This document shows, one piece after another, positions 169-15,055 of a DNA stretch of 22,202 bases. The translations under genes and the position numbers were made by a program. The notes beneath the pieces are model-generated. The model was not told where the DNA came from and ran no database searches. It worked only from the letters and a program-made list of their open reading frames with translations. Source of the DNA: a virus. The stretch is taken from positions 1 to 22,202 of IMG/VR virus record IMGVR_UViG_3300010354_007201; one strand, written 5' to 3'. How positions within the stretch are numbered: the stretch's first letter is position 1; each line of letters begins with the position of its first letter.

Positions 169-186
169 ATCCTGTAAAGGAAATTT

Positions 187-1236
187 ATGGAATCTTTGAA
201 AATAGCTGTTTATACTATCTGTAAAAACGAAGAACAGTTTGTTGAACGTTGGTCAAATAGTAATTTAGATGCAGATTATAGATTAGTCTGCGATACAGGC
301 AGCTCAGATAATACAGTAAAATTATTACAATCACTGAATATTCATGTGATTCCAATTTCCGTCATGCCATGGAGATTTGATACTGCAAGAAATACTGTGT
401 TGAATCTACTACCTAGTGATATTGATATTTGTATCAGCCAAGATCTAGACGAAGAACTTTTGCCGGGATGGAGACCTCAATTAGAAAATCAATGGCATAA
501 AGATACAACCATTGCTTATCATAGATATCGTCATAATAACAATTCCTGGCAATGGCATTCAAAAATACACGCTAGACACGGTTGTCGGTGGACTGGTATC
601 GTGCATGAAACTCTGTCATGGGATCGATCGGATAACATAATATGGATAGAAAATTTATTTCTAGACGAACATCAAGATATCAACAAATCTCGTTCTAATT
701 ATCTTGATCTTATTTTGAAAAAGATAAATGAAGGAGATAACCATTGGAGAACCTATTATTTTCTAGCCAACGAATACGAAAATATAGGTGATATAGAAAA
801 ATCTATCACTTCTAGAAAAATTAGTTATGATCACTGCGATGACGGAAATACTGTTTTATCATACATCGCTAAAAATATCGCCAGACAATATTCTTCACTG
901 AACGATCAACTATCTGCTGAAAAATGGTTTAGAATATCTGTCAATGACAGCGACGAAAGAGAAAGTTGGTTTTCTTACTGTCAGTATCTTTATAATAAAA
1001 AAGATTGGGAAGGTTGCTATATAGCAGCAAAAAAATGTATATCAATATCCGAAAAAAGAACAGGGTTCACTTACGATGCAGCGGCTTGGGATTGGCACAT
1101 CTATGACTACGCAGCCTTGAGTGCATACAATCTAGGACTAAACAGTCAAGCATTTATCTATGGAAAATTATCTGTTGAAAAAAATCCCGACGATCAAAGA
1201 TTACGAACAAATTTAAAATTTTATGAACAAAGTTAA
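187..1236 (+). CDS. Glycosyltransferase family 2-like with TPR-like C-terminus (copy 1)
   Basis: A 349-aa protein. Residues 5-90 form a GT-A nucleotide-sugar domain: an AVYTICKNEE start strand, VCDTGSSDNT at 34-43, and a metal-binding DxD in SQDLDEE (D86, D88). The PWRFDTARNT stretch at 61-70 is typical of this group. The second half is helical and repetitive, with segments such as WHIYDYAALSAYNLG that resemble tetratricopeptide repeats. The role is probably transfer of a sugar to a virion protein or host surface glycan in the cytoplasm; the substrate cannot be read from sequence. The start is ATG 187 after an AAAGGAAA Shine-Dalgarno and a late promoter. The gene overlaps the next, paralogous one by 14 bp, so the two are probably co-translated. 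Confidence 0.8.
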   Translation: MESLKIAVYTICKNEEQFVERWSNSNLDADYRLVCDTGSSDNTVKLLQSLNIHVIPISVMPWRFDTARNTVLNLLPSDIDICISQDLDEELLPGWRPQLENQWHKDTTIAYHRYRHNNNSWQWHSKIHARHGCRWTGIVHETLSWDRSDNIIWIENLFLDEHQDINKSRSNYLDLILKKINEGDNHWRTYYFLANEYENIGDIEKSITSRKISYDHCDDGNTVLSYIAKNIARQYSSLNDQLSAEKWFRISVNDSDERESWFSYCQYLYNKKDWEGCYIAAKKCISISEKRTGFTYDAAAWDWHIYDYAALSAYNLGLNSQAFIYGKLSVEKNPDDQRLRTNLKFYEQS

Positions 1237-2344
1237 GACCTGTGTGTATGCCATAGCATTGAACGAAATTAAATTCGTTGATCAATTTATGGATCATTGT
1301 GCTGAAGCAGATTTAGTTTTAGTCTGCGATACAGGCAGTACCGATGGAACCGCTGAAAGATTGAAACAGCGAGGAGCAACTGTATACAATGTCACACAAA
1401 AACCTTGGAGATTTGACATCCCAAGAAACACTGCGCTGAATCTAATACCCAACGATATAGATATATGTCTTTCTATTGATCTAGACGAATTTTTACAGCC
1501 TGGTTGGAGTAATCATATAAATCAGGCCTGGCAGCAACACCAAGGTGCTATCTCAAGAATCGCCTATGATTACATATGGAACTGGAAAGAAGATGGTGTA
1601 ACTCCAGATATAAGGTTCTATGCAGATAAGATACACAGCAGAAAAAATTACAGATGGCGGCATCCCTGTCACGAAACATTATATTATGAAGGAGACGGTC
1701 AAGAATGTAGAATAACTATTCCTGAAGTTGTTTTACACCATCGTGCGGATCGCGATAAAAGCCGCGCTCAATATCTTCCATTATTAGAAATGGCAGTAAA
1801 TGAGGATCCGGAGAACGACCGCATGTCTCATTATTATGCAAGAGAACTTATGTTTAGAGCACAGTATGAAGATGCTATCATCGAATTTCAAAGGCATTTA
1901 TCATTAGAAACTGCTCGCTGGGCCGAAGAACGTGCTTCTAGTTTAAGATACATCTCAAGATGTTATAGGTATTTAGGAAAACTATTGGATAGTCAACAAT
2001 GGGCTATTAAATCTACTTTAGAATGGCCTTGGAGTAGGGAACCGTGGTTAGAGTTAGCCAGAGCTGCACACGTAAATAAAGATTGGAATACTTGTTTTTG
2101 GGCATCAGAAAAATGCCTGTCTATAACAGAAAGAAAAATGACCTATATCTCTGATAGTAGTTGCTGGGGCTCTGAACCTTACGATCACGCTGCATTAGCA
2201 GCATATAACTTAGAATTATATGATCGCGCCTTGCTATATGGGAAGAAAGCCTTGGATTTAGACCCCGATAACAAAAGATTGTCGGATAATCTTAAATTTT
2301 ACATAGAAAAACAAGAGTCAATCCATTATAACAACCAAGGATAA
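1223..2344 (+). CDS. Glycosyltransferase family 2-like with TPR-like C-terminus (copy 2)
   Basis: A 373-aa paralogue of the preceding gene. The first 90 residues align without a gap: VCDTGSTDGT at 34-43, PWRFDIPRNTALNLIP at 61-76, and the DxD in SIDLDEF at D86 and D88. An HETLYYEG segment matches HETLSWDR in copy 1. The C-terminal half again looks like TPR helices (YDHAALAAYNLELYDRALLYG), and both proteins end in a NLKFY motif. ATG 1223 lies inside the 3' end of copy 1, a 14-bp overlap that suggests translational coupling. The pair is a tandem duplication that has diverged, so the two copies may act on different acceptors or sugars. The glycosyltransferase fold is clear; the target is inference. 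Confidence 0.8.
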   Translation: MNKVKTCVYAIALNEIKFVDQFMDHCAEADLVLVCDTGSTDGTAERLKQRGATVYNVTQKPWRFDIPRNTALNLIPNDIDICLSIDLDEFLQPGWSNHINQAWQQHQGAISRIAYDYIWNWKEDGVTPDIRFYADKIHSRKNYRWRHPCHETLYYEGDGQECRITIPEVVLHHRADRDKSRAQYLPLLEMAVNEDPENDRMSHYYARELMFRAQYEDAIIEFQRHLSLETARWAEERASSLRYISRCYRYLGKLLDSQQWAIKSTLEWPWSREPWLELARAAHVNKDWNTCFWASEKCLSITERKMTYISDSSCWGSEPYDHAALAAYNLELYDRALLYGKKALDLDPDNKRLSDNLKFYIEKQESIHYNNQG

Positions 2345-2349
2345 ATATA
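2340..2349 (+). promoter_or_regulatory. Probable late promoter embedded in a stop codon (GATAAATATA)
   Basis: GATAAATATA overlaps the TAA stop (2342-2344) of the second glycosyltransferase and lies 22 bp before the ATG at 2372. It matches the ATAAATA form of the T4-like late promoter. The same ten bases recur at 6599-6608, again overlapping a stop codon and before a virion-type gene. Confidence 0.5.
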
Positions 2350-2371
2350 GTATCACCTCACGGAAGATACT

Positions 2372-3454
2372 ATGAGAGACTTATTAACAAAATTAGACGC
2401 TATAGTTAGCGAAACAGCACTGCGAGATCAAGGTGATCTCGATGCCAAACGCAAAGCATTACAGGATCTAGCATCGGACCCAATTGCTTCAAAAGATCCA
2501 GAAATTTCCCAGGCTATCACACAGCGTAAAGCAGATCTAGAAAAAGAAGCCAAAGCCAAGGGATTTGAAGAAGAAATCGACTTTGATAAAATCCGCAAAG
2601 ATGCTGCTGACAGTCTTAAAAAAGACATAGACAAACAAAGTGATGATAGGATCGCTAAAATGAAGTCTGGGGACAGCGACGATGAGCCATTCATGAGTCA
2701 AGTAGGTCGCAAAATCATAGGAGGAGTAAAAGGTGCTGTCAAAGGCGCTGCCAAAGGTTTTTCAGGTAAAGAATCACTTGACGAAGACATCTATCAAATA
2801 GGAGACGATTTCGGTCTCAGTTTTTCGGAAGATTTTGAAATAGCAACAGAAATAGTAGATATATTAGAAGATGGTATAGTTATTGAATTAGATGATTATG
2901 CCTATGACTATCTTGCTAATGAAGGTTTTTCGTTTGAAGAAATACAAATAGACGAAGAAAAACAAAAAGGTGTTGATGGTAAAGCCTGTTGGAAAGGTTA
3001 TAGACGTATGGGCACTAAACAAAAAGGCGGTAAGACTGTAGACAACTGTGTAAAAGTAGGCGAAGATACAGATATAGAAGAAGGAAAATATCCTTTCGCT
3101 GGCGCCAAAGTAGGTCAGAAAGAAGGCCCAGCAGGACAATTAAAAGGAAAGGATCCAGCAGGCTATCCCAAAGGTAAATTAGTAGGTGGCGAAAGCATAG
3201 ATCAAGATGTAGACGAAGCCAAATATCGTGGCAAAGAAGTTCCGCTGGGCAAAAAACTGCCAGGAGATGTTAAAAAATCTAAAGTCTACGTTCGTAAGCC
3301 AAACGGTAATATCGTCAAGGTAAACTTTGGCGATAAGAATATGCGTATTAAGAAATCTAATCCCAAGCGCAGGAAATCTTTCCGTGCAAGACATAATTGC
3401 AAAAATCCAGGACCACGTTGGAAAGCACGTTATTGGAGTTGTAGGAGCTGGTAA
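2372..3454 (+). CDS. Virion-associated protein with basic Cys-rich C-terminus
   Basis: A 360-aa protein with no enzymatic motif. The N-terminal 100 residues are charged and helical (coiled-coil-like). A GGVKGAVKGAAKG stretch follows at about 117-129. An acidic middle section then contains ESLDED and ESIDQDV, and GKACWKGYRRMG lies near residue 204. The last 50 residues are very basic with NFGDKNMRIKKSNPKRRKSF and KARYWSC. The KSNPxRRKSFRARHNC...KARYWSC ending is, to my knowledge, a recurrent module in virion proteins of marine T4-like phages. The position behind a late-type promoter agrees. It overlaps the next gene by one base (TAATG). I infer a capsid-associated or DNA-binding role from composition and context only. 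Confidence 0.65.
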   Translation: MRDLLTKLDAIVSETALRDQGDLDAKRKALQDLASDPIASKDPEISQAITQRKADLEKEAKAKGFEEEIDFDKIRKDAADSLKKDIDKQSDDRIAKMKSGDSDDEPFMSQVGRKIIGGVKGAVKGAAKGFSGKESLDEDIYQIGDDFGLSFSEDFEIATEIVDILEDGIVIELDDYAYDYLANEGFSFEEIQIDEEKQKGVDGKACWKGYRRMGTKQKGGKTVDNCVKVGEDTDIEEGKYPFAGAKVGQKEGPAGQLKGKDPAGYPKGKLVGGESIDQDVDEAKYRGKEVPLGKKLPGDVKKSKVYVRKPNGNIVKVNFGDKNMRIKKSNPKRRKSFRARHNCKNPGPRWKARYWSCRSW

Positions 3455-3789
3455 TGTTACTTAAAGAAATGTTTAGTGCCATCGGCGCTCCTAAGGATGA
3501 AAATCAAGATATAAACTGGTTAGATGATTTAAAATTTTTCATCGATAACGATGATACTATGTTAAATCAACTTTTTTTTCCTGCTATCAAGAAGCACAAG
3601 GAGCATAAAGGCAATCCTAACGTCTATAAAATTTATATTCATCCGTTACAAAAATGTAAAGAAGCATACTGCGAAAAATTTGAAATAGATCACCCCGAGC
3701 AAAAATTTCCAAAAGAGAAAATAATAGAACTAGCAAAATATATTGCAAGCGAACAAGAAAAATTTATCAGCAAAGGTGATTATCAATAA
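3454..3789 (+). CDS. Conserved phage protein with MLLKEMF leader
   Basis: A 111-aa protein starting MLLKEMFSAIGAPKDE. The body contains INWLDDLKFFIDND and VYKIYIHPLQKCKEAYC and is mixed alpha/beta in character with no known catalytic motif. The start codon overlaps the preceding stop (TAATG) and has AGGAG upstream, so expression is likely coupled. The first residues match those of the next gene (MLLKELFEAE), which suggests a shared leader rather than chance. Related small proteins seem familiar from marine T4-like phages, but I know of no assigned function. A virion or prohead role is inferred from the leader and the neighbourhood. Confidence 0.65.
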   Translation: MLLKEMFSAIGAPKDENQDINWLDDLKFFIDNDDTMLNQLFFPAIKKHKEHKGNPNVYKIYIHPLQKCKEAYCEKFEIDHPEQKFPKEKIIELAKYIASEQEKFISKGDYQ

Positions 3790-4394
3790 TGTTGTTAAAA
3801 GAATTATTTGAAGCAGAAAGCAAACATGCCACGTTCTGCTTCGGTAGAATGAATCCTCCCACCATTGGACATGCTAAAGTTTTTGAAACTATGGCCAGTC
3901 AAGGCGGAGATTATTTTATATTTGTTAGCCAAAGCCAAGATAAAAAAGAAAATCCTTTAGATTACAGCACTAAAATCAAATTTATCAAAGAAATCCATAA
4001 AGAATACGCTGATCATGTCATAGAAGACGGCAGTATTAATACAGTAGTCAAAGCAGCCAGTTATCTTTATGATCAAGGATATAGAGACGCAACATTTGTA
4101 GCAGGCAGTGATAGAATAGAACAATTTAAAAAATTACTGACTCAATATAACGGAGTTGAAGGTAAGGCACATGGATTTTACAAATTTGAAGTTTTAGATT
4201 TTGTCAGCAGTGGAGAACGTGAAGACGGTGCCGAAGGTGTGGCAGGAGTAAGCGCATCGGGGGCTAGATTAGCAGCAGCAAATAATGATCTAGAATCATT
4301 TAAAAAGGCTACAGGTGCTGGCGATATGTCGCAGACAATGTTCGATGCTGTTCGTAAAGGAATGGGTATTTCGGAAAGTTTAGAAACTAAATGA
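3789..4394 (+). CDS. Nucleotidyltransferase, NMN adenylyltransferase/cytidylyltransferase-like
   Basis: A 201-aa protein of the HIGH-type nucleotidyltransferase superfamily. Residues 15-30 read TFCFGRMNPPTIGHAK, where TIGH (25-28) is the (H/T)xGH nucleotide-binding signature. Near the C-terminus GVSASGARLAAA corresponds to the SxTxxR-type second signature. Such enzymes join NMN, CTP or similar substrates to nucleotidyl groups with release of pyrophosphate; NMN adenylyltransferase (NAD synthesis) is the commonest phage annotation. The N-terminus before the fold, MLLKELFEAESKH, resembles a T4 capsid-targeting leader with an LFE cleavage site. It lies among late-type genes, so the enzyme may be packaged. 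The start overlaps the previous stop (TAATG). The exact substrate is uncertain. Confidence 0.75.
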   Translation: MLLKELFEAESKHATFCFGRMNPPTIGHAKVFETMASQGGDYFIFVSQSQDKKENPLDYSTKIKFIKEIHKEYADHVIEDGSINTVVKAASYLYDQGYRDATFVAGSDRIEQFKKLLTQYNGVEGKAHGFYKFEVLDFVSSGEREDGAEGVAGVSASGARLAAANNDLESFKKATGAGDMSQTMFDAVRKGMGISESLETK

Positions 4395-4768
4395 AAGCAA
4401 AAGAATTTATACCACCAAGCAGACCACGCAATCCTGTAGTTCGCCAACAGCAAACTTCTGGTGCCGGCGCACATCGGGATAAAAAGAAAGAACAAAAGCA
4501 AGGCTACGAAAAGCATAAAGGAAAGGTAGACGAAAGAGTGAGAGATCCTGAAGATTGGGATGAAGGTAATACAGAACCCGGAAACAACTTTGCTGTCTAT
4601 ATAAATGGTAAGAAGTGGAAAGTATTCCCTGGACCTTACGGTGCTTATGCCGACAGTCCCGAAGAAGAAAGAGAATTCTACAGATTAAAAGACATGGCCC
4701 GCAGAAAATCAGATCAAACTGGTAAGAAGTGGGAAGTTTATAAGACCGGCGAGCCGGCTACAAAATAA
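4391..4768 (+). CDS. Conserved phage protein, basic, with KKWEVY C-terminal module
   Basis: A 125-aa protein with an N-terminal MKAKEFIPPSRPRNP leader and a basic linker (SGAGAHRDKKKEQKQGYEKH). A compact C-terminal module at about 61-122 contains NFAVYINGKKWKVF, YADSPEEE and TGKKWEVYKTGE. The module looks like a small folded domain with paired Trp-Lys strands; similar endings seem familiar from T4-like phage structural and hypothetical proteins. No enzymatic residues are evident. The ATGA overlap with the nucleotidyltransferase stop implies coupled translation. Position and leader suggest a virion-associated protein; this is inference. Confidence 0.6.
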   Translation: MKAKEFIPPSRPRNPVVRQQQTSGAGAHRDKKKEQKQGYEKHKGKVDERVRDPEDWDEGNTEPGNNFAVYINGKKWKVFPGPYGAYADSPEEEREFYRLKDMARRKSDQTGKKWEVYKTGEPATK

Positions 4769-4986
4769 TGGAACTGTCTGAATTAAAACGTCTTGCTGGT
4801 ATAACAGAATTTAAAGGCTATCAACCCTATGGCGGTAGCAATATTAGTATTACAGGCAACGAGAAAGGTGAACTTATGAAAAAACATAATATCAAACCAG
4901 GAACACCCGAGTGGTTTCAATTATGGTTTAGTTTACCTTATCTCACCGGAGAGAAGCCTGTAGGGGACAAAAAATGGTTGAGATAA
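4768..4986 (+). CDS. Small conserved phage protein with LAGITE motif
   Basis: A 72-aa protein starting [21 protein letters not shown] at 12-14 is a possible (L/I)xE prohead-protease site. The C-terminal half, [18 protein letters not shown], is rich in aromatic residues and probably forms a small fold. The ELKRLAGIT string resembles ELRVLAGVT in the 332-aa protein at 6634, which suggests a shared peptide module within this gene block. The start overlaps the preceding stop (TAATG). The gene overlaps the next one by 13 bp. Function is unknown. Confidence 0.55.
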
Positions 4987-5300
4987 CCAAAGACGCAAAA
5001 ACAAAGATCATAGATCTCTTGATTGATGAAAACAATCCCAAGTTATTTCTACGTACATTTGTACAAGGTGGTGGATGTAGTGGTTTCAGTTATGGTTTTA
5101 CTTTTGATGAAGAAATCAATGAAGATGACTTTGAATTTCCCTTAGACGAAAAATTTAAATTTGTAATTGATTCTATGAGTATGCAGTATATGACAGGCGC
5201 TACTATTGATTACAAAGAAGAATTGACGGGAAGTCAATTTACTATTCAAAATCCTAATGCACAAACTACCTGTGGTTGTGGGAGTAGTTTCAGTGTTTAA
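4974..5300 (+). CDS. A-type iron-sulfur cluster carrier (IscA/ErpA-like)
   Basis: A 108-aa protein of the HesB/IscA family at full family length. The three conserved cysteines are present: C35 in [12 protein letters not shown], and C100 and C102 in [10 protein letters not shown]-type carriers bind a [2Fe-2S] or [4Fe-4S] cluster between subunits and pass it to apo-enzymes in the cytoplasm. ATG 4974 lies inside the preceding gene and is preceded by AGGGGA, so a 13-bp overlap is likely real. The phage also encodes a radical-SAM QueE, which needs a [4Fe-4S] cluster, and a CDGSH-like mini-protein. Helping load phage Fe-S proteins is therefore a reasonable but unproven role. Its place inside a late block is unexpected. 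Confidence 0.9.
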
Positions 5301-5370
5301 CGAATATCCAATATATCCAGAACAACAAGGCGAAGAAGATCGCCCACTTAATCCTTATTCACCAGTATGA
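5293..5370 (+). CDS. Possible 25-aa micro-ORF bridging two genes
   Basis: GTG at 5293 opens a 25-codon frame ending at TGA 5368-5370: [16 protein letters not shown] followed by RPLNPYSPV. It overlaps the end of the Fe-S carrier gene by 8 bp and its stop overlaps the ATG (5367) of the next gene as ATGA. It thus fills the only gap in an otherwise gapless run, with the spacing style of the real neighbours. The peptide is acidic and Pro/Tyr-rich with no domain. It may encode a tiny protein or serve only to couple translation; chance is possible. Confidence 0.3.
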
Positions 5371-6413
5371 GATCCTACGAATTTATAACGGAAAAAAAAC
5401 GCAAACGTAGACCTCGCTGGGCGGCTTACGGCCCAGGTCCCTACGGTGGTTATGGTTATGCTGTAGGATATAGTGGCGATGGCGGGGCTTCTGGCGGTGA
5501 CGGTGGTGGCGGAGTAGGTGAAGATCAACACCCTAACGAAAAACCAAAAGGTCCGGAAAACAAACCAACGATGCCTAAAGGCACTGTTAAAGTCGATGTA
5601 AGCGATGTTTACGATTGGTATAAGTTGGGACAGCATATCAGTGACTTAAAAGGTTTAGGTAAGCACGATTTTGGCAAGGGACCCCCTAGTGCGATATTAT
5701 CTTTTGGCGATGAAGACGAAGAACACAAATATATCAAAAATCTTAAAAAAACTGGATTAGACACTACAGATATTGATCCTAAATCTCATGAAAAGAAAAA
5801 GGGTCAAAAAACAGATCCTACTTATAATGTAGAAGCATCTTATCCTGGCAACTTAGGAATGATGGAACTGGCTAAGTTTTTTCAACTAGCCGATGATAAA
5901 CAGAAAGAAATATTCAAACAATTATTAGAAAAAGGCAAGAAGGGTCTTGCTTGGAAACTAGTACAAGATACTGTGGGTGTAAAATTACAAGGAAAAGAGT
6001 TTGAAGAAGATATTGTAACAGAATTGAAAATTACAGACAAAGATGTACAACGAATAATAAAAGATAAATTAGCCATCGATGCTGATTCTGGAGTCGAGGC
6101 CATGAGATTGGCTATAGAAAAAATGTCCTCACTTCCTGATACTCCTTATGTTAGATCTCAATCTGCTCAATTGATGATGTTATATAAACAGGCAAAAATG
6201 AGCGTGGGGGGAGACTATTATAGAAAATTATACAAGTTGGCTGAAAATTTCGCTGACGGTAAAAAACCTGGACGCAAAGGTCTAGCAAAACGTTCAGGTG
6301 TAAATTGTAAGGCCAGTGTAACTAGTCTTAGGAAAACCGCAAAAAATTCATCGGGCGAAAAAGCCAGAATGGCACACTGGTGTGCCAATATGAAATCAGG
6401 ACGCAATAAATAA
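5367..6413 (+). CDS. Virion-associated protein with MRSYEFITE leader
   Basis: A 348-aa protein. It starts [16 protein letters not shown], close to the T4 internal-protein leader type (MKTYQEFIAE) with an ITE site at 7-9. A Gly/Tyr-rich, low-complexity segment follows (YGPGPYGGYGYAVGYSGDG, then Gly/Asp repeats) to about residue 52. A folded middle part contains VYDWYKLGQHISDLKGLGKHDFG and a helical stretch around LAKFFQLADDKQKEIFKQLL. The C-terminus, with KRSGVNCKASVTSLRKTAK and KARMAHWCANMKSG, is a module I associate with structural proteins of marine T4-like phages. No catalytic motif is evident. A mature capsid-internal or head-associated protein, cut after the leader, is the best inference. 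Confidence 0.65.
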   Translation: MRSYEFITEKKRKRRPRWAAYGPGPYGGYGYAVGYSGDGGASGGDGGGGVGEDQHPNEKPKGPENKPTMPKGTVKVDVSDVYDWYKLGQHISDLKGLGKHDFGKGPPSAILSFGDEDEEHKYIKNLKKTGLDTTDIDPKSHEKKKGQKTDPTYNVEASYPGNLGMMELAKFFQLADDKQKEIFKQLLEKGKKGLAWKLVQDTVGVKLQGKEFEEDIVTELKITDKDVQRIIKDKLAIDADSGVEAMRLAIEKMSSLPDTPYVRSQSAQLMMLYKQAKMSVGGDYYRKLYKLAENFADGKKPGRKGLAKRSGVNCKASVTSLRKTAKNSSGEKARMAHWCANMKSGRNK

Positions 6414-6417
6414 CAAT

Positions 6418-6603
6418 ATGAAAATCCGTGAATTATTAGAAACAGCCACAGCAGGATCTACATCTGCAGCAAACGTATCTGTAGGCGTATTTTATCCTAA
6501 TAAATCAGGTAAACAGCCCAAGAAGAAAAAGGACGGCACTGCGCCTAATGCCCTAGATATCAAAGGACTGAGCCTATTTGGCGGCTCGACGATAAAAAGA
6601 TAA
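6418..6603 (+). CDS. Small phage protein with MKIRELLE leader
   Basis: A 61-aa protein starting MKIRELLETATAGST, a leader like those of its neighbours with a possible LLE cleavage site at 6-8. The rest is basic and of low complexity (KSGKQPKKKKDG) and ends LDIKGLSLFGGSTIKR. Four bases separate it from the previous stop. There is no clear Shine-Dalgarno, so it may be read by re-initiation. A short late-type promoter sequence overlaps its stop codon. Composition suggests a small DNA- or capsid-associated peptide; function unknown. Confidence 0.55.
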   Translation: MKIRELLETATAGSTSAANVSVGVFYPNKSGKQPKKKKDGTAPNALDIKGLSLFGGSTIKR

Positions 6604-6608
6604 ATATA
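6599..6608 (+). promoter_or_regulatory. Probable late promoter embedded in a stop codon (GATAAATATA)
   Basis: GATAAATATA at 6599-6608 overlaps the TAA (6601-6603) of the small leader gene and precedes the ATG at 6634 by 25 bp, with AAGGAAG at 6621-6627 as ribosome-binding site. It repeats exactly the ten bases at 2340-2349 and matches the T4-like late-promoter core ATAAATA. Confidence 0.55.
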
Positions 6609-6633
6609 TTATAAACCACTAAGGAAGTGTAAA

Positions 6634-7632
6634 ATGGACTTTAAATCACTGATCAGCAAAATCGAAAGCATCGATGGACCTATTGATACACCCAAAGCCC
6701 CAGAAAAGGCAGAACCCATACGTTTAGATGAAGACACAGAATTACGTGTCCTTGCAGGCGTAACTCCGTTGACTGAAAGCATTATCGCTGAAAAAGCAGT
6801 TAGCAAAGCGCAACAGAAATTTATGGGAATGGTACACGCTGCTCAGAAAGGTGAACCGGCCGCTAGCAAGGAAGTAGCCAAAGTAGCTAAAGATATGCCT
6901 AAGAAGGCTGCCAAGGATTATGCTGAAACCAAACACAAAGGTCTTCCAGAAAAGAAAAAGAAAGACGAATCTCTAGAAGTAGTAGAAGCAGATGATCGTG
7001 CTGCTGCTAAGAAAACAGAAAGAGAAGTAGAACTCCCAAGTGGTGCAAAAGTTAAAGCAACTAAAGTACAAGGTTGGCAAAGCCAGAAGGCTGATAAAGA
7101 ATCTGACAAAGAGAAAAAGAAAGACGAATCAATCGATGTAGAAGAATTTAAAGGCAAGTTTTCTAAGATGGTCGAAGCAAAAAAGGAAAAGATGTCTAAG
7201 AAAGATAAAAAGATGGACGAAGGATCTAAGCCAGACTTTTTAGATCTAGATAAAGACGGCAATAAAAAAGAGCCGATGAAAAAAGCCGCAGCAGACAAAG
7301 GTGGTGATAAAAAAGACGGCAAAAAAGGCATGAGTGAAAAACAGAAAAAATATTTCGGTAAGAAAGACGAATCTGTTAAAAAGGATAAAGCGGTGGTGGC
7401 CGAATCCGTTGAGCAAAAATTAACATTGAAAGATATGTTAAAAGTTGTACAAGAGAGCGGAGGCCAGCAAGCCATAGATCCTATGGATAAAGAACTTTGG
7501 ACTTGGGCCAATCGAGTTGCAAGTTCTAAAATTCAAGAAAGCCAAAAAGCAGAAATATTTGCTGCAATGATTTATGAGCGTAACGGCGGACGTTTCGAAA
7601 TGTATGATGTTTTAGCTGAAGATCAAAAATAA
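6634..7632 (+). CDS. Lys-rich virion-associated protein with DUF3008-like domain
   Basis: A 332-aa protein, extremely rich in Lys, Glu and Asp. Residues about 28-50 contain ELRVLAGVTPLTESIIAE, with LTE and IAE as possible prohead-protease sites. Directly after, SKAQQKFMGMVHAAQKGE to KDYAETKHKGLPEKKK (about 53-109) matches the small bacterial/phage family DUF3008 as I recall it. KKDES recurs at 109-113, 162-166 and 243-247. PDFLDLDKDGNKKEPM near 201-216 resembles an EF-hand-like DxDxDG loop. The C-terminal 70 residues form a more ordered domain (ELWTWANRVASSKIQES, MYDVLAEDQK). It has its own late-type promoter and good AAGGAAG site, and is followed by a terminator. A scaffold or capsid-internal role is inferred. 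Confidence 0.65.
   Translation: MDFKSLISKIESIDGPIDTPKAPEKAEPIRLDEDTELRVLAGVTPLTESIIAEKAVSKAQQKFMGMVHAAQKGEPAASKEVAKVAKDMPKKAAKDYAETKHKGLPEKKKKDESLEVVEADDRAAAKKTEREVELPSGAKVKATKVQGWQSQKADKESDKEKKKDESIDVEEFKGKFSKMVEAKKEKMSKKDKKMDEGSKPDFLDLDKDGNKKEPMKKAAADKGGDKKDGKKGMSEKQKKYFGKKDESVKKDKAVVAESVEQKLTLKDMLKVVQESGGQQAIDPMDKELWTWANRVASSKIQESQKAEIFAAMIYERNGGRFEMYDVLAEDQK
6958..7373 (+). repeat. Three in-frame copies of AAGAAAGACGAATC (KKDES repeats)
   Basis: The 14-mer AAGAAAGACGAATC occurs at 6958-6971, 7117-7130 and 7360-7373, always in the reading frame of the 332-aa protein, where it encodes KKDES. Each copy is followed by Leu, Ile or Val and an acidic or basic stretch. The identity at the third codon positions suggests recent internal duplication or selection. 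Confidence 0.7.
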
Positions 7633-7652
7633 TTTTACATTTTGGTTAAAAG

Positions 7653-7682
7653 AAGCCAGTCCTGAGTTGACTGGCTTTTTTT
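7653..7682 (+). terminator. Rho-independent terminator
   Basis: AGCCAGTC (7654-7661) pairs perfectly with GACTGGCT (7669-7676) around a 7-nt loop, extendable by an A-T pair, and is followed directly by a T run (7676-7682). It closes the late-type block 20 bp after the stop of the 332-aa protein. Confidence 0.85.
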
Positions 7683-7695
7683 ATGACTATATAAT
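7667..7695 (+). promoter_or_regulatory. Sigma-70-type promoter overlapping the terminator
   Basis: TTGACT (7667-7672) and TATAAT (7690-7695) are separated by exactly 17 bp, a near-consensus host sigma-70 promoter. The -35 box lies in the loop and 3' arm of the terminator hairpin. It would start transcription about 7702 for the DsbA-like gene, the membrane protein and gp43, an early or middle pattern. Confidence 0.7.
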
Positions 7696-7715
7696 TGTCG
7701 TACAAGGAGATTACA

Positions 7716-7982
7716 ATGGCGAAAATGTATGGGCCTGAAGAAAAAGCGAAATTAGAACGTTTAATCAATGAAGGATCTAATGTTCTTAGAGAAGTTGAAG
7801 ATCTACAGGAAGGTCTCAAAGAAACAGTAAAGGCTGTTGCCGAAGAATTACAAGTTAAACCTAGTATCATCAATAAAGCAATTAAAATTGCTCATAAAGA
7901 TAACTGGAAAGCACATGAAGAAGAATGGGATGAGATTGAAATGATTCTCGGTGTTACTAAACATTTGCCTGAAAAAGAATAA
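7716..7982 (+). CDS. Small DsbA-like dsDNA-binding protein (T4 type)
   Basis: An 88-aa helical, charged protein, MAKMYGPEEKAKLERL to LGVTKHLPEKE. The middle, GLKETVKAVAEELQVKPSIINKAIKIAHK, has the look of a helix-turn-helix-like segment (a conserved VKPSIINKAI turn) after an N-terminal coiled coil. This resembles the phage DsbA family, small double-stranded-DNA-binding proteins that bind near late promoters in T4. ATG 7716 is preferred over the in-frame TTG at 7695 because AAGGAG (7704-7709) stands correctly before it and the TTG would overlap the -10 box. It is the first gene behind the 7667 promoter and abuts the next gene (TAAATG). The name is a resemblance from memory, not a proven match. 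Confidence 0.5.
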   Translation: MAKMYGPEEKAKLERLINEGSNVLREVEDLQEGLKETVKAVAEELQVKPSIINKAIKIAHKDNWKAHEEEWDEIEMILGVTKHLPEKE

Positions 7983-8270
7983 ATGGAAAAAATCTATGCA
8001 ATCTTTAACTGGATCCGACAAGATTATTCAACTAATACAATACGTTTTTGTCTTGAGGTCTTTGCTTGGGTTCTTTCTATTGGCTGCGCTGTCACTATGG
8101 CATTCACCGTTCCAACACCACCTTTCATGGTTCTTTACCCTGTTTGGATATTTGGGTGTATTATATATGCTGGGTGCTGTTATAGTCGTGGTTCCTTTGG
8201 TTTGCTTGCTAATTACCTGCTTATGGTCACGATCGACAGCATCGCCCTAGCAAGGTTGATAAGTAATTAA
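7983..8270 (+). CDS. Small membrane protein, about three transmembrane segments
   Basis: A 95-aa hydrophobic protein. Likely membrane segments are residues about 23-42 (LEVFAWVLSIGCAVTMAF), 47-66 (PFMVLYPVWIFGCIIYAG) and 73-91 (GLLANYLLMVTIDSIALA). The N-terminus MEKIYAIFNWIRQD is charged. The ATG directly follows the TAA of the DsbA-like gene, so translation is probably coupled. A second frame at 7951-8250 overlaps it but has no independent support. Proteins with a GxLANYxLxVTID ending seem familiar from marine T4-like phages, with no known role. Nothing marks it as a holin apart from size and hydrophobicity. Confidence 0.6.
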   Translation: MEKIYAIFNWIRQDYSTNTIRFCLEVFAWVLSIGCAVTMAFTVPTPPFMVLYPVWIFGCIIYAGCCYSRGSFGLLANYLLMVTIDSIALARLISN

Positions 8271-8310
8271 TGTAGATGGTAGGCGAGGCCATAAGCCGCA
8301 TATTTGGTAT

Positions 8311-8335
8311 TTGCAAGCCTTAAATTGCAAGGGAG
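8311..8335 (+). promoter_or_regulatory. Hairpin at the gp43 ribosome-binding site, probable translational operator
   Basis: TTGCAA (8311-8316) and TTGCAA (8325-8330) are self-complementary and can pair as a 6-bp stem around the 8-nt loop GCCTTAAA. The Shine-Dalgarno GGGAG follows at once (8331-8335), with the gp43 ATG at 8340. In T4, gp43 represses its own translation by binding a hairpin with an 8-nt loop that overlaps its ribosome-binding region. The layout here is the same although the bases differ. Confidence 0.5.
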
Positions 8336-8339
8336 AAAA

Positions 8340-11009
8340 ATGAGTTACGTTGATGCATTCTATGATCGCGACGATGACATGATTCGTGTCGTTGAGCGTG
8401 ATGACAAAGGCAATAGGCATTACAAAGACTATCCTGCCAAACACTTATTCTATTACTATGACCCCCGAGGAAAATATCAATCCATCAAAGGAGAACCTCT
8501 ATCAAAAGTCAGTTGTAAAAACGTAAAAGAATTAAGAAAAGAACTAGCAATACACTCAAACAAAAAACTTTACGAATCAGATATTAATCCTATCTATCGT
8601 TGCCTCGAAGACCATTATCTTAATACAGATGCGCCAAAACTTAATGTAGCATTTTTCGATATTGAAGTAGATTTTGATCCGGAGAGGGGTTATGCATCTC
8701 CCGAAGATGCTTTTATGCCAATAACTGCTATAGCGATTCATCTACAATGGTTAGATACTCTTATATGTCTCGCCATTCCTCCAAAGACTATGTCTATGGT
8801 TGAAGCTAAAAAATCTGTGGAAGAATTTCCTAATACAATGCTGTTTGAAAATGAAGCAGAAATGCTAGATAATTTTTTGCATTTGATCGAAGACGCAGAT
8901 GTATTGAGCGGATGGAATTCGGAAGGATTTGATATACCATATACTGTTAATCGTGTTACTAAAGTTCTAAGCAAGGAAGATACTCGCAGATTCTGTCTTT
9001 GGAATTGTTATCCTAAGAAAAGAGAATACGAGAAATATGGAAAGACTGCTGTCACCTACGATCTCATCGGACGAGTACACCTAGACAGTCTCGAAATGTA
9101 TAGAAAATATACCTATGAAGAGCGACATACATATAGATTGGATGCTATTGGGGAAATGGAAGTTGGTGAGAGTAAAACTGTATATGAAGGAACCCTTGAT
9201 CAACTCTATAACAACGACTTCCGTAAGTTCATCGAATATAATAGACAGGATTGTGCGCTACTAAACAAGTTAGATCAAAAACTTAAATTTCTAGATCTAG
9301 CAAACAAACTAGCACATGATTGCACTGTGTTGTTGCAAACAACAATGGGTGCCGTGGCTGTAACAGAACAGGCTATCATTAATGAAGCACATCGCAGAGG
9401 TATGATCGTTCCTAATCGTAAAAAGATGGAAGAACACGGTGATACACAGGCTGCAGGTGCGTATGTTGCATATCCCAAGAAAGGCATCCATGAATGGATT
9501 GGTTCGTTAGATATTAATTCACTATATCCTTCGGCAATTCGTGCTTTAAATATGGGGCCGGAGACCATTGTTGGACAACTAAGGCAAGATGGAACTAAAG
9601 ATTATATTTCTGCAGAAATGGCTAAAGGCAAATCATTTGCTGCTGCTTGGGAAGGTATTTTCGGATCATTAGAATATACAGCAGTAATGAACAAAGAAGT
9701 TGGTAGAGATATTACTATAGATTGGGAAGATGGTGGTAGCGATACTCTTAGTGCTGCACAAATTTATGATTTAATTTTTGAAAGCAACCAACCTTGGATG
9801 CTTTCGGCTAATGGTACTATCTTTACATATGAAAAAGAAGGAATTATTCCCGGCTTGCTAGCTCGTTGGTATAAAGAGCGTAAAGAGATGCAGTCTAAAC
9901 TACGTGAATGTATACAGGCAGGTAATAAAATCGAAGAAGAATATTGGGACAAGCGACAGTTAGTTAAGAAAATTAATCTTAACAGTTTATATGGTGCTAT
10001 TCTCAATCCTGGTTGTAGGTTTTTTGATAACAGAATTGGTCAATCTACCACACTTACAGGTAGAGCAATCGCCAAACATATGGCTTCAAAAGTAAACGAA
10101 ATTATCACTGGAGATTATGATCACATAGGTCGTGCTATTATCTACGGTGACACAGACTCTTGTTACTTCTCTGCATATACAACGCTAAAGAAGGACATTG
10201 AGAAAGGTAACCTTCCTTGGTCTAAGGAATCGGTTATTGAACTTTACGATACCATAGGAGAAGAAGTAAATGGCACGTTTGTTAAATTCATGCAGGACGC
10301 CTTTCATTGCCCCAAAACCAGAGCCGAAGTTATCAAAGCAGGTCGCGAGATTGTTGCAAGCAAAGGACTTTTCATCACCAAAAAACGATACGCAGTCCTC
10401 TACTTCGACAAAGAAGGAAAAAGAACTGATATCGAAGGAAAATCAGGAAAAATAAAAGCCATGGGATTGGATCTTAAGAGATCAGATACTCCTGTAATAA
10501 TTCAAGATTTCTTAAGTGAAGTTCTTGAGATGGTACTCAAAGGCGCTGTTAAAGATGAAGTGTTAGAGTATATTACAGATTTTCGTACAGAATTTAAAAC
10601 TAGGCCAGGGTGGGAGAAAGGTTCACCCAAACGTGCTAACAACATTACTGAATATGCTTCCAAAGAAAAGAAACAGGGTAAGGCCAATATGCCAGGACAC
10701 GTTCGTGCGTCTTTAAATTGGAATACCTTAAAGCGTATGTTTGACGACAAGTATAGTATGGGTATTGTAGATGGTGCTAAAGTCATAGTATGTAAACTAA
10801 AAGATAATCCTATGGGCTATACCAGTGTTGCGTATCCTGTGGACGAACTGCGTTTACCACAATGGTTCAAGGATCTGCCTTTTGACGATAGTGAAATGGA
10901 AACTACAGTTATCGATGAAAAGTTAGAAAATCTTATTGGTGTTTTGGAATGGGACATCAGTTCAACAAGATCGGATAATACATTCAGCAAACTATTTGAT
11001 TTTGAGTGA
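8340..11009 (+). CDS. 43: Family B DNA polymerase (T4 gp43 type)
   Basis: An 889-aa replicative polymerase, close to the T4 gp43 length (898). The N-terminal proofreading 3'-5' exonuclease shows FFDIEVDFD (Exo I, D107/E109), GWNSEGFDIPY (Exo II) and YNRQDCALL (Exo III). The polymerase domain shows motif A SLDINSLYPS (D391), motif B KKINLNSLYGA and motif C IYGDTDSCYF (D604, D606). All catalytic acids are present, so the enzyme should copy and proofread phage DNA with the gp45 clamp. ATG 8340 is chosen over the upstream in-frame TTG 8304 because GGGAG stands 4 bases before it. The TTG extension would encode the operator hairpin. It must tolerate the deazaguanine-modified templates implied by the downstream genes. 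Confidence 0.97.
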   Translation: MSYVDAFYDRDDDMIRVVERDDKGNRHYKDYPAKHLFYYYDPRGKYQSIKGEPLSKVSCKNVKELRKELAIHSNKKLYESDINPIYRCLEDHYLNTDAPKLNVAFFDIEVDFDPERGYASPEDAFMPITAIAIHLQWLDTLICLAIPPKTMSMVEAKKSVEEFPNTMLFENEAEMLDNFLHLIEDADVLSGWNSEGFDIPYTVNRVTKVLSKEDTRRFCLWNCYPKKREYEKYGKTAVTYDLIGRVHLDSLEMYRKYTYEERHTYRLDAIGEMEVGESKTVYEGTLDQLYNNDFRKFIEYNRQDCALLNKLDQKLKFLDLANKLAHDCTVLLQTTMGAVAVTEQAIINEAHRRGMIVPNRKKMEEHGDTQAAGAYVAYPKKGIHEWIGSLDINSLYPSAIRALNMGPETIVGQLRQDGTKDYISAEMAKGKSFAAAWEGIFGSLEYTAVMNKEVGRDITIDWEDGGSDTLSAAQIYDLIFESNQPWMLSANGTIFTYEKEGIIPGLLARWYKERKEMQSKLRECIQAGNKIEEEYWDKRQLVKKINLNSLYGAILNPGCRFFDNRIGQSTTLTGRAIAKHMASKVNEIITGDYDHIGRAIIYGDTDSCYFSAYTTLKKDIEKGNLPWSKESVIELYDTIGEEVNGTFVKFMQDAFHCPKTRAEVIKAGREIVASKGLFITKKRYAVLYFDKEGKRTDIEGKSGKIKAMGLDLKRSDTPVIIQDFLSEVLEMVLKGAVKDEVLEYITDFRTEFKTRPGWEKGSPKRANNITEYASKEKKQGKANMPGHVRASLNWNTLKRMFDDKYSMGIVDGAKVIVCKLKDNPMGYTSVAYPVDELRLPQWFKDLPFDDSEMETTVIDEKLENLIGVLEWDISSTRSDNTFSKLFDFE

Positions 11010-11017
11010 TTTGAAGG

Positions 11018-11046
11018 TTGATTTTCATTCCAGATCTAAATATAAT
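11018..11046 (+). promoter_or_regulatory. Sigma-70-type promoter for the sliding clamp gene
   Basis: TTGATT (11018-11023) and TATAAT (11041-11046) are separated by 17 bp in the gap between gp43 and gp45. The start would be near 11053, before GGAG (11059-11062) and the ATG at 11072. The overlapping CTAAATATAA also resembles a late-promoter core, so dual early and late use is possible. Confidence 0.6.
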
Positions 11047-11071
11047 CTTAAAATACATGGAGACTCTCTAA

Positions 11072-11809
11072 ATGAAAGACATTTTACAAGACATCGTGAG
11101 CCACACACAAAACCTAGGCTTCTTAACCACAGTTAAAATCACAGGCTCTGAAAATAAAACAGAAATTTTTTCTATGGCAGACGATCGTTCGGTCATTATG
11201 ACTGCTGAAACAGCAAATGCATACCCCGATATGATTGGAACATTTGGTATGCCTCAGTTGCAAAAATTAAAATATTTACTAGATGGCGCCGAATATAAAG
11301 AAGATGCTAAAATCAGTATCACTACAGCAGAACGCAATGGAGAAACTATTCCTGTTGGTATCCACTTTGAAAATAAAGACGGAGACTTCAAGAACGATTA
11401 TCGTTTTATGAATCAAGAAATCATTAACGAAAAGATGAAGACTGTCAAGTTTCGCGGTGTTAAGTGGGATGTAGATATTGAACCCACTGTGGCTGCTGTG
11501 CAGCGTTTCAATTTTCAAGCAGGTGCTAATAACGAGCATCCGACTTTCTTAGCAAAAACAGATGGCGGAAACTTGAAGTTCATCTTCGGCGATGCATCAA
11601 CACACGGCGGCGAGTTCGTATTTGCACAGAATGTAGCAGGCAAACTTGATCGTGGTTGGACTTGGCCAGTACTACCAATCCTTAGCATTCTTAAAATTGC
11701 GGATGTCAACAACACAACAATGTCTTTGAGTAACGAAGGTGCTATCCAGGTCACTCTAGACAGCGGACTTGCTACTTACAAATACATCATTCCTGCACAG
11801 GCGGCCTAA
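11072..11809 (+). CDS. 45: Sliding clamp (T4 gp45 type)
   Basis: A 245-aa protein, slightly longer than T4 gp45 (228). It starts MKDILQDIVSHTQNLGFLTTVKI and has the all-beta/alpha alternation of clamp proteins, with FKNDYRFMNQEIINEKMKTVK in the middle and SNEGAIQVTLDSGLATYKYIIPA at the end. Such endings (weak-interaction strand, then a YxIP tail) fit trimeric clamps. The ring holds gp43 on DNA and, in T4, also activates late transcription by contacting gp33 and gp55, which matches the late promoters seen on the left. The gene follows gp43 directly behind its own promoter. No clamp-loader genes (44/62) are adjacent, unlike the T4 order. Confidence 0.85.
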   Translation: MKDILQDIVSHTQNLGFLTTVKITGSENKTEIFSMADDRSVIMTAETANAYPDMIGTFGMPQLQKLKYLLDGAEYKEDAKISITTAERNGETIPVGIHFENKDGDFKNDYRFMNQEIINEKMKTVKFRGVKWDVDIEPTVAAVQRFNFQAGANNEHPTFLAKTDGGNLKFIFGDASTHGGEFVFAQNVAGKLDRGWTWPVLPILSILKIADVNNTTMSLSNEGAIQVTLDSGLATYKYIIPAQAA

Positions 11810-11817
11810 ATATCCTT

Positions 11818-13362
11818 ATGAAAAAACCAGTCGATTTGACACCGTTACAGAAAGACTATGCAGTCTACTTACCTGCAATTAGTTCTTTCTATTCTACATA
11901 CATAGCAAAACAAAGGCTAGAAGAATTTATTCCTAACGATCGCATTCCTAAAGGTTTTGATCAAGGAATTGAAGGTATGAACTTTCTCAATCCTGAACAG
12001 GGTTATTTCTACTACAAATATGCTTTGTATTCAGCAGGACACGCACAATTAGACATAACTAAATCTATGACACAAGAATCTATGATCCAGCAACGTGATC
12101 GTAGCAAAACGATGATCTTAGGTGACTCGGGTGGATATCAGATCGGTAAAGGTGTTATTAAATTCGATTGGCAAAATTTTGAAGGCACAGAAGCAAATAA
12201 AGTTCGTGAAAAGATTTTAACTTGGTTAGATGTTACAGCAGATTGGTCTATGATGCTAGACGTTCCGACTTGGGCCTGTGATCATATCCATAGTCCAAAG
12301 ACAGGATTAAAAACATTTGAAGATTGTCTAGACAAAACTCGATTTAATAATGAGTACTTTATTAATAATCGTCTAGGTGTAAAAGAAGGTGGTACAAAAC
12401 TTTTAAATGTATTGCAAGGTTCTAATTGGGAAAATGCTGAAGCATGGTACCAGGGTGTAAAAGAATATTCTGACACAACTAAGTATGGGGACAAAGCCGC
12501 AGAAGGTTGGGCCATGGGTGGTGCTAATATGTGCAAGATGCCTATTACACTACGCAGACTGATCACTATGCGATTTGATGGTATGTTGGAAGGCAAAGAT
12601 TGGATGCACTTCCTAGGTACCGCGCAATTAGATTGGAGTTGCTATCTAACTTCTATACAACGTCAAATTAGGAAACATATCAATGAACAATTCACAATCT
12701 CTTTCGACTGTGCGTCACCTTTCATCGCAACAGCTCACGGACTGGTATACACTAATGCCCAACACACCTCTAAGCGATTCAGTGTTATCATGGATAAAGC
12801 CCCGGACAATAAGATGCTTGCCGGACGGCACAATATTCCTTTTCCTTTCGAAAGCGATTTTGGTCGAAGACTTACGATCGCGGATATATGCCACTACGCA
12901 CCAGGAATGTTAAACAAAATTGGCAAAGAAGGTAAAACATCTTGGGATTCATTTGCCTATGCCTTAATGATGGGTCATAATGTAGAATGCCATATTCGTG
13001 CTGTTCAACGAGCCAATAATTTAATGGACATTGAAACTACAAAACATCGTCCAGATTGGAGGCATTGGCGCAAGGTCAAAGACGCTGACAAAAGTGATGA
13101 AATTAGTGAATGGGTTCCAAGAAATATTTTATATTTTAATCGATTTATCGAAGAATTGTTTGAAATTAAAAGCAAGGAAGAAGCATTCGCAATGATTGCC
13201 GAAGCCGAGCGTCTTGGATTCTTACAGAATTTAGAAGGTGCTAGGCTACGTGGTGGTGTGACAAATATTGCAGATACACTATTCTATGAAGAATCCGAAG
13301 ATGAAACTTCTTGGATTGATGACAGAGAAGATGAGGCGTTGGATAACCTAAAAGTCGAATAA
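11818..13362 (+). CDS. dpdA: DpdA-like tRNA-guanine transglycosylase homologue (DNA base exchange)
   Basis: A 514-aa protein with a complete TGT catalytic set: GDSGGYQ (D103) for the base pocket, MMLDVP (D148), NVLQGS (Q200), MGGANMC (G234-G235), HFLGTA (264-269) and SFDCASP (D297) in the position of the nucleophilic Asp. TGT enzymes exchange a guanine for a 7-deazaguanine. The CxCxxC...H zinc site of tRNA-acting TGTs is not visible after residue 300, and there is a 200-residue divergent C-terminus. These traits fit the DpdA branch, which inserts preQ0 or related bases into DNA. folE, a queD-like gene and queE downstream supply such a base. It starts at ATG 11818, 9 bp after the clamp gene. 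The preferred DNA target sequence cannot be read. Confidence 0.8.
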   Translation: MKKPVDLTPLQKDYAVYLPAISSFYSTYIAKQRLEEFIPNDRIPKGFDQGIEGMNFLNPEQGYFYYKYALYSAGHAQLDITKSMTQESMIQQRDRSKTMILGDSGGYQIGKGVIKFDWQNFEGTEANKVREKILTWLDVTADWSMMLDVPTWACDHIHSPKTGLKTFEDCLDKTRFNNEYFINNRLGVKEGGTKLLNVLQGSNWENAEAWYQGVKEYSDTTKYGDKAAEGWAMGGANMCKMPITLRRLITMRFDGMLEGKDWMHFLGTAQLDWSCYLTSIQRQIRKHINEQFTISFDCASPFIATAHGLVYTNAQHTSKRFSVIMDKAPDNKMLAGRHNIPFPFESDFGRRLTIADICHYAPGMLNKIGKEGKTSWDSFAYALMMGHNVECHIRAVQRANNLMDIETTKHRPDWRHWRKVKDADKSDEISEWVPRNILYFNRFIEELFEIKSKEEAFAMIAEAERLGFLQNLEGARLRGGVTNIADTLFYEESEDETSWIDDREDEALDNLKVE

Positions 13363-13371
13363 GGAGATTTT

Positions 13372-13551
13372 ATGTATGAAAATCGAATCAAACATTTGGA
13401 AGAAGCACATCATTTGTTAGATAAGAAAATTGACGGTTTAGAAACTACGGGCATTTTTGACGATTTAGAAATAGAAAAATTGAAAAAACAAAGGTTGCAA
13501 TTAAAAGATCAAATTGCTATACTAAAGAACAAGCAACAACACGAAAAGTAA
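13372..13551 (+). CDS. YdcH/DUF465-like small coiled-coil protein
   Basis: A 59-aa protein, MYENRIKHLEEAHHLLDKK to LKNKQQHEK, preceded by AAGGAG at 13361-13366. The pattern IKHLEEAHHLLDKKIDxLE...FDDLEIEKLKKQRLQLKDQI is the hallmark of the bacterial DUF465 (YdcH) family. These are short anti-parallel coiled coils often of unknown function. It lies 10 bp after the transglycosylase gene and is probably translated from the same message. It may be an accessory or oligomerising subunit, but nothing in the sequence proves a partner. Family resemblance is strong; role is unknown. Confidence 0.7.
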   Translation: MYENRIKHLEEAHHLLDKKIDGLETTGIFDDLEIEKLKKQRLQLKDQIAILKNKQQHEK

Positions 13552-13557
13552 AAAATA

Positions 13558-13977
13558 ATGTATTCCGAATCAGACTACGAAAATTTCAGCAATAAAATGG
13601 AAACTACATTTCCAAAAATGTTTTCTGATCGATATGGTGGTTTCGCTATCGGTCCCGGTTGGTGGCCTCTAATAGAAGAATTATGTAGCACGATCCAAAA
13701 TCATATTGATCATAGGAAAGGTCAATGTCAGCAGGTTATTATAGAGCAAATTAAAGAAAAATTCGGAACTCTGAGATTTTATTATAGAGGGGGCGATGAT
13801 TTCATAGACGGAGCAGTATTTCTTGCAGAAAATTTAACTAGTCAAATGTGCGAAGAATGTGGTGCTCCGGGACGAAGGACTAGCGAGGGTTGGATTAGAA
13901 CTCTTTGCGATTTTCATATTGCTGAACGCGAAACTCTAAAAATCAAGGACTTAGAAAAAAATGGATTTAAAGAATAA
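13558..13977 (+). CDS. Conserved hypothetical protein with C-terminal zinc-finger-like motif
   Basis: A 139-aa protein. The N-terminal part has the signature FAIGPGWWPLIEELC (29-43), then QIKEKFGTLRFYYRGGDD (64-81). The C-terminal part has C98xxC101 and C117xxH120 (MCEECGAPG, TLCDFH), spaced as in a CxxC-x15-CxxH zinc knuckle. Proteins of this outline occur in bacteria and phages and have no assigned function that I know. There is no obvious Shine-Dalgarno before ATG 13558. The gene overlaps the next small Cys-rich gene by 17 bp. It may bind nucleic acid via the zinc knuckle; this is inference. Confidence 0.65.
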   Translation: MYSESDYENFSNKMETTFPKMFSDRYGGFAIGPGWWPLIEELCSTIQNHIDHRKGQCQQVIIEQIKEKFGTLRFYYRGGDDFIDGAVFLAENLTSQMCEECGAPGRRTSEGWIRTLCDFHIAERETLKIKDLEKNGFKE

Positions 13978-14122
13978 ATGCGGGACCTGTGGACGAATAT
14001 ATACACCAGCCTGCGATTGGATGCAAGGTCGTTGTCCTCATCATCCCCCTTATATTAATCCTCATTCATTTAGATTTTTGCATCTAATTAATTCTATCAA
14101 AAAATTTTTTAAAATTAACTAA
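13961..14122 (+). CDS. Small Cys-rich zinc-binding-like protein
   Basis: A 53-aa protein starting MDLKNKCGTCGRIYTPACDW. Four cysteines (C7, C10, C18, C25) plus H27 and H28 in GRCPHHPP form a likely zinc knuckle in the first 30 residues. The rest is a basic tail (HLINSIKKFFKIN). ATG 13961 overlaps the preceding gene by 17 bp and the stop is 2 bp before the next ATG, the spacing typical of this operon. The conserved-looking CxTCGxxYTPACDWxxGRCPHHPP core argues for a real gene. It may be a small nucleic-acid-binding protein; function unknown. Confidence 0.6.
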   Translation: MDLKNKCGTCGRIYTPACDWMQGRCPHHPPYINPHSFRFLHLINSIKKFFKIN

Positions 14123-14124
14123 CT

Positions 14125-14658: not shown

Positions 14659-15044
14659 TTATTCGCCAAGACGTTCGTCCAAACAAAATGATTTGGGTTA
14701 CTTTTCGCAAAGAAGGTATCCATAAATACCCTGCTGCTCTAACAGAGCCAGCATTAGCTACAGGAGATGAATATGATGTTTCGTTCCTTGGTTATCCTCA
14801 CCGTCATATCTTCCATTTCAGGGTGTGGATCTCTGTTATGCACAATGATAGAGACGTCGAGTTCATCCAATTCAAGCGCTGGCTCGAAAACCTGTACGGT
14901 GGAGGTACTATCTCGTTAGATTATAAAAGTTGTGAGATGATGTCGGACGAATTGTACGAAGTCATCAAAGCAAAGTATCCAGATCGCGAGGTTTGGATTG
15001 AGGTCTCCGAAGACGGAGAAAATGGTTCATTCATCAAATATTAA
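14655..15044 (+). CDS. queD: QueD-like 6-carboxytetrahydropterin synthase family protein
   Basis: A 129-aa protein with the length and order of the T-fold QueD/PTPS family. IHKYPAA (H23) aligns with the first zinc histidine of E. coli QueD (AAHRLPH), PHRHIFHF (H49, H51) with its LHGHSF zinc pair, VEFIQFKRWLENLY with the DFxxLK helix, and VWIEVSEDGENG (E119) with the VKET acid. QueD turns dihydroneopterin triphosphate into 6-carboxytetrahydropterin, the second step to preQ0. The catalytic Cys found four residues before the zinc pair in E. coli QueD is a Leu here (L45), so activity may differ. The start ATG overlaps the previous stop. folE and queE in the same operon support the assignment. It could be a non-canonical PTPS member. 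Confidence 0.55.
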   Translation: MIIRQDVRPNKMIWVTFRKEGIHKYPAALTEPALATGDEYDVSFLGYPHRHIFHFRVWISVMHNDRDVEFIQFKRWLENLYGGGTISLDYKSCEMMSDELYEVIKAKYPDREVWIEVSEDGENGSFIKY

Positions 15045-15055
15045 AGGAAACTAAG

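Follow-up and report, generated by a model that had tools for sequence, protein, structure and literature searches.

A predicted intrinsic terminator nested with the predicted sigma-70 promoter of a dsbA-polB gene block in relatives of jumbo phage PA5oct

Many related jumbo phages have a putative signal that ends one block of genes and a putative signal that starts the DNA-polymerase block sharing a few letters, and comparison of these relatives indicates that both jobs have been preserved. We describe this element from a 22.2-kb virus record, the whole length of which is the window analysed here, and consider it highly probable, from the comparison of related sequences, that the nested arrangement is a compact operon boundary in which an intrinsic terminator is fused with the sigma-70 promoter of dsbA-polB. 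RNA polymerase that has read the co-directional genes upstream would transcribe a GCCAGTC/GACTGGC hairpin and a U tract, and release its RNA at about position 7682; the same bases, as double-stranded DNA, would supply the -35 of a sigma-70 promoter of host type, TTGACT-17-TATAAT, from which transcription of dsbA, a small open reading frame (ORF) and polB would start at about 7702. We infer termination, initiation, the exact RNA ends and late upstream transcription from these features, and the overlap itself may be explained by compactness and by shielding of the replication operon against read-through from upstream. The case rests above all on two loci, two geometries, and the loss of either half in relatives.

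The element and its setting

The hairpin lies on the + strand, with a 5' arm at 7653-7661 (AAGCCAGTC), a CTGAGTT loop at 7662-7668 and a 3' arm at 7669-7677 (GACTGGCTT), and is followed by a tract of seven T at 7676-7682 that would place RNA 3' ends at about 7681-7684. The -35 hexamer, TTGACT (+ strand, 7667-7672), takes its first two bases from the end of the loop and continues into the 3' arm; the -10 hexamer, TATAAT (+ strand, 7690-7695), follows after a spacer of 17 bp, and is succeeded by the dsbA ribosome-binding site AAGGAG (+ strand, 7704-7709) and the ATG at 7716. The earlier note had proposed that a terminator and a promoter share these bases and had placed both correctly; it had also described a perfect 8-bp stem, and while the hairpin is indeed uninterrupted, its length is 9 bp, with A-U pairs beneath that can extend it into the T tract. 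The predicted RNA fold has a free energy of -21.1 kcal/mol (z = -6.0), which none of 200 shuffled sequences equalled. The structure combines the expected features of an intrinsic terminator: a stable, GC-containing hairpin, a T tract directly 3' of the stem that is conserved in relatives, and compensatory change in the stem, which is strong at a second locus, dnaJ, and concerns two pairs at dsbA. A simple scan of positions 1-20000 left this terminator unlisted, probably because a greedy stem swallowed the T tract.

The promoter has the properties expected of sigma-70, in that its hexamers fall within the 16-18 bp range of spacing (17 here) and it is conserved ahead of a gene with a ribosome-binding site. 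TTGACT-17-TATAAT ranks top among the promoter matches in positions 1-20000, matching 11 of 12 consensus bases and tied with one other. There are 72 such matches in this T-rich, AT-rich DNA, where 61.7 were expected, and this abundance might suggest a plain terminator with a promoter match by chance; we find that reading hardly credible, given that TTGAC-17-TATAAT persists before dsbA where the hairpin is absent, as in Pseudomonas phage MIJ3.

Both signals are held in an 83-base gap between the stop codon (7630-7632) of an upstream ORF (6634-7632; 332 aa, Lys-rich, with no assigned function) and dsbA (7716-7982), which encodes an 88-aa DsbA-type DNA-binding transcriptional regulator (PF11126, E = 1.1e-5, above the cut-off; phrog_639). 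A 95-aa ORF (7983-8270), hydrophobic and membrane-like by inspection and without a family match in profile comparison, separates dsbA from the family B DNA polymerase gene polB (8304-11009; phrog_262, E = 9e-200; PF00136), the start codon of which is uncertain; all four genes lie on the + strand. The DsbA and polymerase matches bear out the earlier description of the downstream genes as replication genes. Gene order and protein similarity identify the window as a cousin of the Pseudomonas jumbo phage PA5oct (Wroclawvirus): the polymerases are about 50% identical, and several genes further downstream are collinear. A DNA similarity search of isolated phages found nothing; the phages with the nested element are uncultured, and none was seen in the isolate collection searched. 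Beyond polB, at 11018-11046, a TTGATT-17-TATAAT promoter without a hairpin precedes the next gene (phrog_12062), and is conserved, with counterparts at G001:35984 and G002:31211.

At nested loci with enough upstream sequence, the preceding ORF is co-directional in 77 of 83 cases, ambiguous in six and divergent in none, which fits a terminator acting against upstream read-through; a divergent upstream gene is present at 5 of 39 un-nested loci. One upstream gene family is common to 66 distinct nested loci, in a clustering that used the wrong frame for some loci; other nested loci have different upstream genes, so the element is more than just the end of one particular gene. The earlier note had also called the upstream transcription late. 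Synteny with PA5oct, whose genes ahead of dsbA are for the most part annotated as virion-detected by mass spectrometry, supports without proving the arrival of late transcription at the element, and the upstream transcription that would end there is probably late; this part of the claim draws on that synteny and not on the two genes nearest the element in the window, which have no known function. Our search for transcriptomic data on PA5oct found none.

Immediately after the upstream stop codon lies an imperfect palindrome, TTTACATTTTGGTTAA (7634-7649), with the consensus TTWACC-N4-GGTWAA. Its centre is about 25 nt upstream of the -35 and near -61 relative to the predicted start, where class I activators typically bind, and we regard it as a candidate activator or operator site. 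A half-site occurs in 50 of 81 distinct nested upstream regions, either as TTGGTWAA (GG at 23 nt before the -35) or as TTWACCAA (CC at 29 nt before it), and half-sites are also present at the un-nested loci L388 and L375. There was no clear excess of the palindrome elsewhere in G001 or G002.

Conservation, constraint and loss at dsbA

Relatives were collected from IMG/VR by using DsbA proteins as anchors, so that the sample is independent of the element itself, and this yielded 248 loci with 129 distinct upstream regions. The canonical nested core is found in 81 of the 129; the spacer is 17 bp in all 81, the -10 is TATAAT in 79, and TTGAC is present in nested relatives without exception. TTGAC and the 17-bp spacer are retained even where the stem has diverged, as at L368 (AAGACAGTC..TTGACTGTCTT) and L259/L364 (AAGGCTGG..TTGACCAGCCTT). 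A pattern scan of IMG/VR viral contigs returned at least 120 matches and, among the matches listed, 119 of 120 were upstream of dsbA. The dsbA element occurs at most once per genome in the records searched, and a strict-terminator scan of G001 and G002 revealed no nested element beyond the one at dsbA. Local rearrangements are also seen: a small ORF is inserted between the element and dsbA at L094, L104, L106 and L110, the element remaining upstream of the insertion, and at L245 (about 180-290) there is a tandem duplication of the element's 3' half, in which the second copy lacks a 5' arm and its -35 (TTTACT) is weaker.

The two functions leave different marks on the shared bases. In an alignment of 38 distinct rows, where position in the -35 equals 12 minus the stem pair number, pair 6 contains the sixth -35 base and is A-U in 31 rows and G-C in seven, while pair 4 has gone from C-G to A-U in one row. 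Changes on both sides of the stem amount to eight cells against 1.3 in shuffled alignments, with none of 500 shuffles reaching this value, these cells being sequences counted and not events; along the best dsbA tree, built on 264 bases, the state of pair 6 changes eight times. The covariation at dsbA rests on two pairs because the lower stem is nearly invariant. Pairs 8 and 9 fall within the -35, and here variation affects the 5' arm only, even to the point of mismatch or U-G, and TTGA never varies. That only the 5' arm changes opposite TTGA is the mark of a second constraint on the shared bases. The sixth -35 base shows the converse influence, being T at 73, C at 12 and A at none of 85 nested loci, against A at 23, T at nine and C at two of 34 other loci, where TTGACA is the commonest hexamer; judged by these comparisons, it is dictated by the terminator stem, with T or C replacing A.

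An inverted repeat over the -35 could also be a DNA operator, bound by a repressor such as DsbA itself, and not an RNA terminator. The near-invariance of the lower stem, its coverage of the -35 (a usual position for a repressor) and the identity of DsbA as a DNA-binding regulator are in keeping with this suggestion; we nonetheless judge it very unlikely, since the T tract is retained, U-G pairs are tolerated, the stems at dnaJ vary in sequence yet retain complementarity, and a divergent upstream gene is found at no nested locus.

Either half of the arrangement can be lost. The dsbA promoter stands without a hairpin in the L329 group, the L269 group, L388 and phage MIJ3, and in Vibrio phage 2.275.O the terminator upstream of dsbA is instead succeeded by an extended -10 (TGTTATAAT). 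On the best tree the dsbA terminator has been gained or lost in 11 changes with the promoter staying, and there are four independent, well-supported contrasts; such contrasts are few (four for dsbA, one for dnaJ), and sign tests, which have low power here, were not significant. At dnaJ the reverse loss is seen, the terminator being retained and the promoter gone. Promoter-only relatives at dsbA, together with terminator-only relatives at dnaJ, indicate two separable functions that share bases, and the comparative evidence is that both signals are under selection, have bases in common and can be lost separately. Covariation, a fixed -35 and these losses thus sustain the dual role that the earlier note had assigned to the same bases.

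The same pattern bears on the mutual-interference switch proposed in that note, in which polymerase bound at the promoter would hinder read-through, and transcription reading through would shut the promoter down. Such interference is plausible given the physical overlap, but occlusion is expected at any tandem promoter, and the terminator has repeatedly disappeared from dsbA with its promoter persisting, with the converse at dnaJ. Since each half has been lost separately and repeatedly, neither depends on the other, which argues against an obligate switch, and we consider this explanation improbable.

A second nested class at dnaJ and the wider distribution

A looser terminator scan detected a second class of nested element at phage dnaJ, which in three related genomes is located about 10-12 kb upstream, outside the window. 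Its geometry is different: at dsbA the -35 lies in the 3' arm, whereas at dnaJ TTGAC is within the hairpin loop, with TATAAT 17-18 bp further on. Elements of this class occur at L208:116 (+), L404:15820 (-) and L407:12914 (+), and also upstream of dnaJ in L426-L487. Among 35 distinct dnaJ upstream regions, 20 are nested, with TTGAC or TAGAC inside the loop or overlapping it and a -10 after 17-18 bp, and nine keep the hairpin without a loop -35 or a correctly spaced -10; these nine include L453, where a weak promoter match is placed elsewhere, and three of them match TATAAT at 5 of 6 positions within the last 35 nt by a loose, unspaced count. The stem is 96.6% paired, falling to 20.6-58.6% in slid registers, and 26 cells are changed on both sides against 8.4 when shuffled (0 of 500 shuffles), where cells again count sequences. 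In many members the -10 is just 6-9 nt from the ATG, so that the mRNA may be nearly leaderless. A third candidate nested hairpin, AATGGGCTTGACAGGCCCATTTTTT, is present at L207:12851, with TAAAAT and a small ORF following it.

In five contigs of related jumbo phages, about 1.07 Mb in total, a T-tailed hairpin overlaps the -35 of 11 of 307 strong promoters and lies at or just upstream of it in 18, against 1.3 and 3.0 expected from positions shifted by 300-1100 nt; most of the 11 are the dsbA and dnaJ elements. Conservation in relatives is stronger evidence than these contig counts, and by that comparative standard the nested dsbA arrangement is not due to chance. On the - strand of G001, at 191000-208000 (L216, L217), there is a block of TTGACA-17-TATAAT promoters, probably an early region, in which several promoters are preceded, 7-11 nt away, by the end of a terminator and carry TTTTGG directly ahead of the -35. 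Adjacency of terminator and promoter thus appears common in the related contigs and G001, with nesting as its extreme form. Outside phages, the dsbA-type pattern is rare: a scan of 85,000 cellular genomes gave eight matches, four with a 17-bp spacer and none seen before dsbA; one, in a Lachnospiraceae MAG (L496:4836-4882), has TTGAC nested in a hairpin with a 17-bp spacer before an rpmH-like gene, which suggests that such elements have also arisen independently, as isolated cases, in bacteria.

An addition to the operon-boundary explanation, and not its opposite, is that termination feeds the promoter: a polymerase that has let go of its RNA near 7682 and keeps or regains sigma would re-initiate in place, such that dsbA-polB output would track upstream transcription. 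We regard this as possible though unlikely. Footprints suggest that a polymerase stopped near 7682 would sit roughly over the promoter, some 20 bp short of the start site, and in G001 several early-type promoters have terminators 7-11 nt before them, which is consistent with the proposal. In E. coli, most polymerase remains on the DNA once intrinsic termination has occurred, moves along it by one-dimensional diffusion and re-initiates at promoters nearby, after 37% of terminations or 55% with added sigma, the authors expecting a dependence on the distance between terminator and promoter (PMC6978380, PMC6978322). Against it, the overlap is dispensable in many relatives. The stronger idea that the overlap is itself functional, with released polymerase captured by the promoter underneath and termination feeding the replication operon as a natural re-initiation hub, seems to us a rather unlikely one. 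With respect to the operon boundary and this possible addition alike, the relatives offer a ready-made allelic series on the interplay of termination and initiation, including in-place re-initiation by a polymerase that has just terminated.

Comparison with known systems

Terminators and promoters are usually handled as separate parts, and in the phage clade described here the two have been kept with bases in common; for annotation, this means that a terminator call should not preclude a promoter call at the same bases. We found no published precedent for a natural promoter-terminator overlap in the open literature, our coverage of which was incomplete, and isolated precedents may exist.

The hairpin resembles other intrinsic (Rho-independent) terminators in its GC-rich stem, short loop, preceding A tract, following T tract and position at a co-directional gene end, but differs in that its 3' arm and loop end double as a -35. 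Likewise, TTGAC-17-TATAAT, with 11 of 12 consensus bases, matches a host-type sigma-70 promoter, with the difference that the sixth -35 base appears to be set by the stem, and is T or C instead of A. Attenuator and riboswitch terminators involve an antiterminator fold in a leader ahead of the gene they regulate. The dsbA element begins after the upstream gene's stop codon and runs into the promoter of dsbA itself, and no competing fold was noticed there. Bifunctional terminator-promoter elements engineered for yeast similarly assign both functions to one element, but these are engineered fusions for a eukaryote, whereas the dsbA element is a natural bacterial-type hairpin that has bases in common with a -35 (PMC10298055). 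There is also a likeness in position to the terminator-then-early-promoter order seen in G001 and reported for Kayvirus 515A1, with the early promoter p98 right after the terminator t97 (PMC7698491). These too mark a boundary between ending and beginning units; there, however, the two signals are adjacent, while here they interpenetrate.
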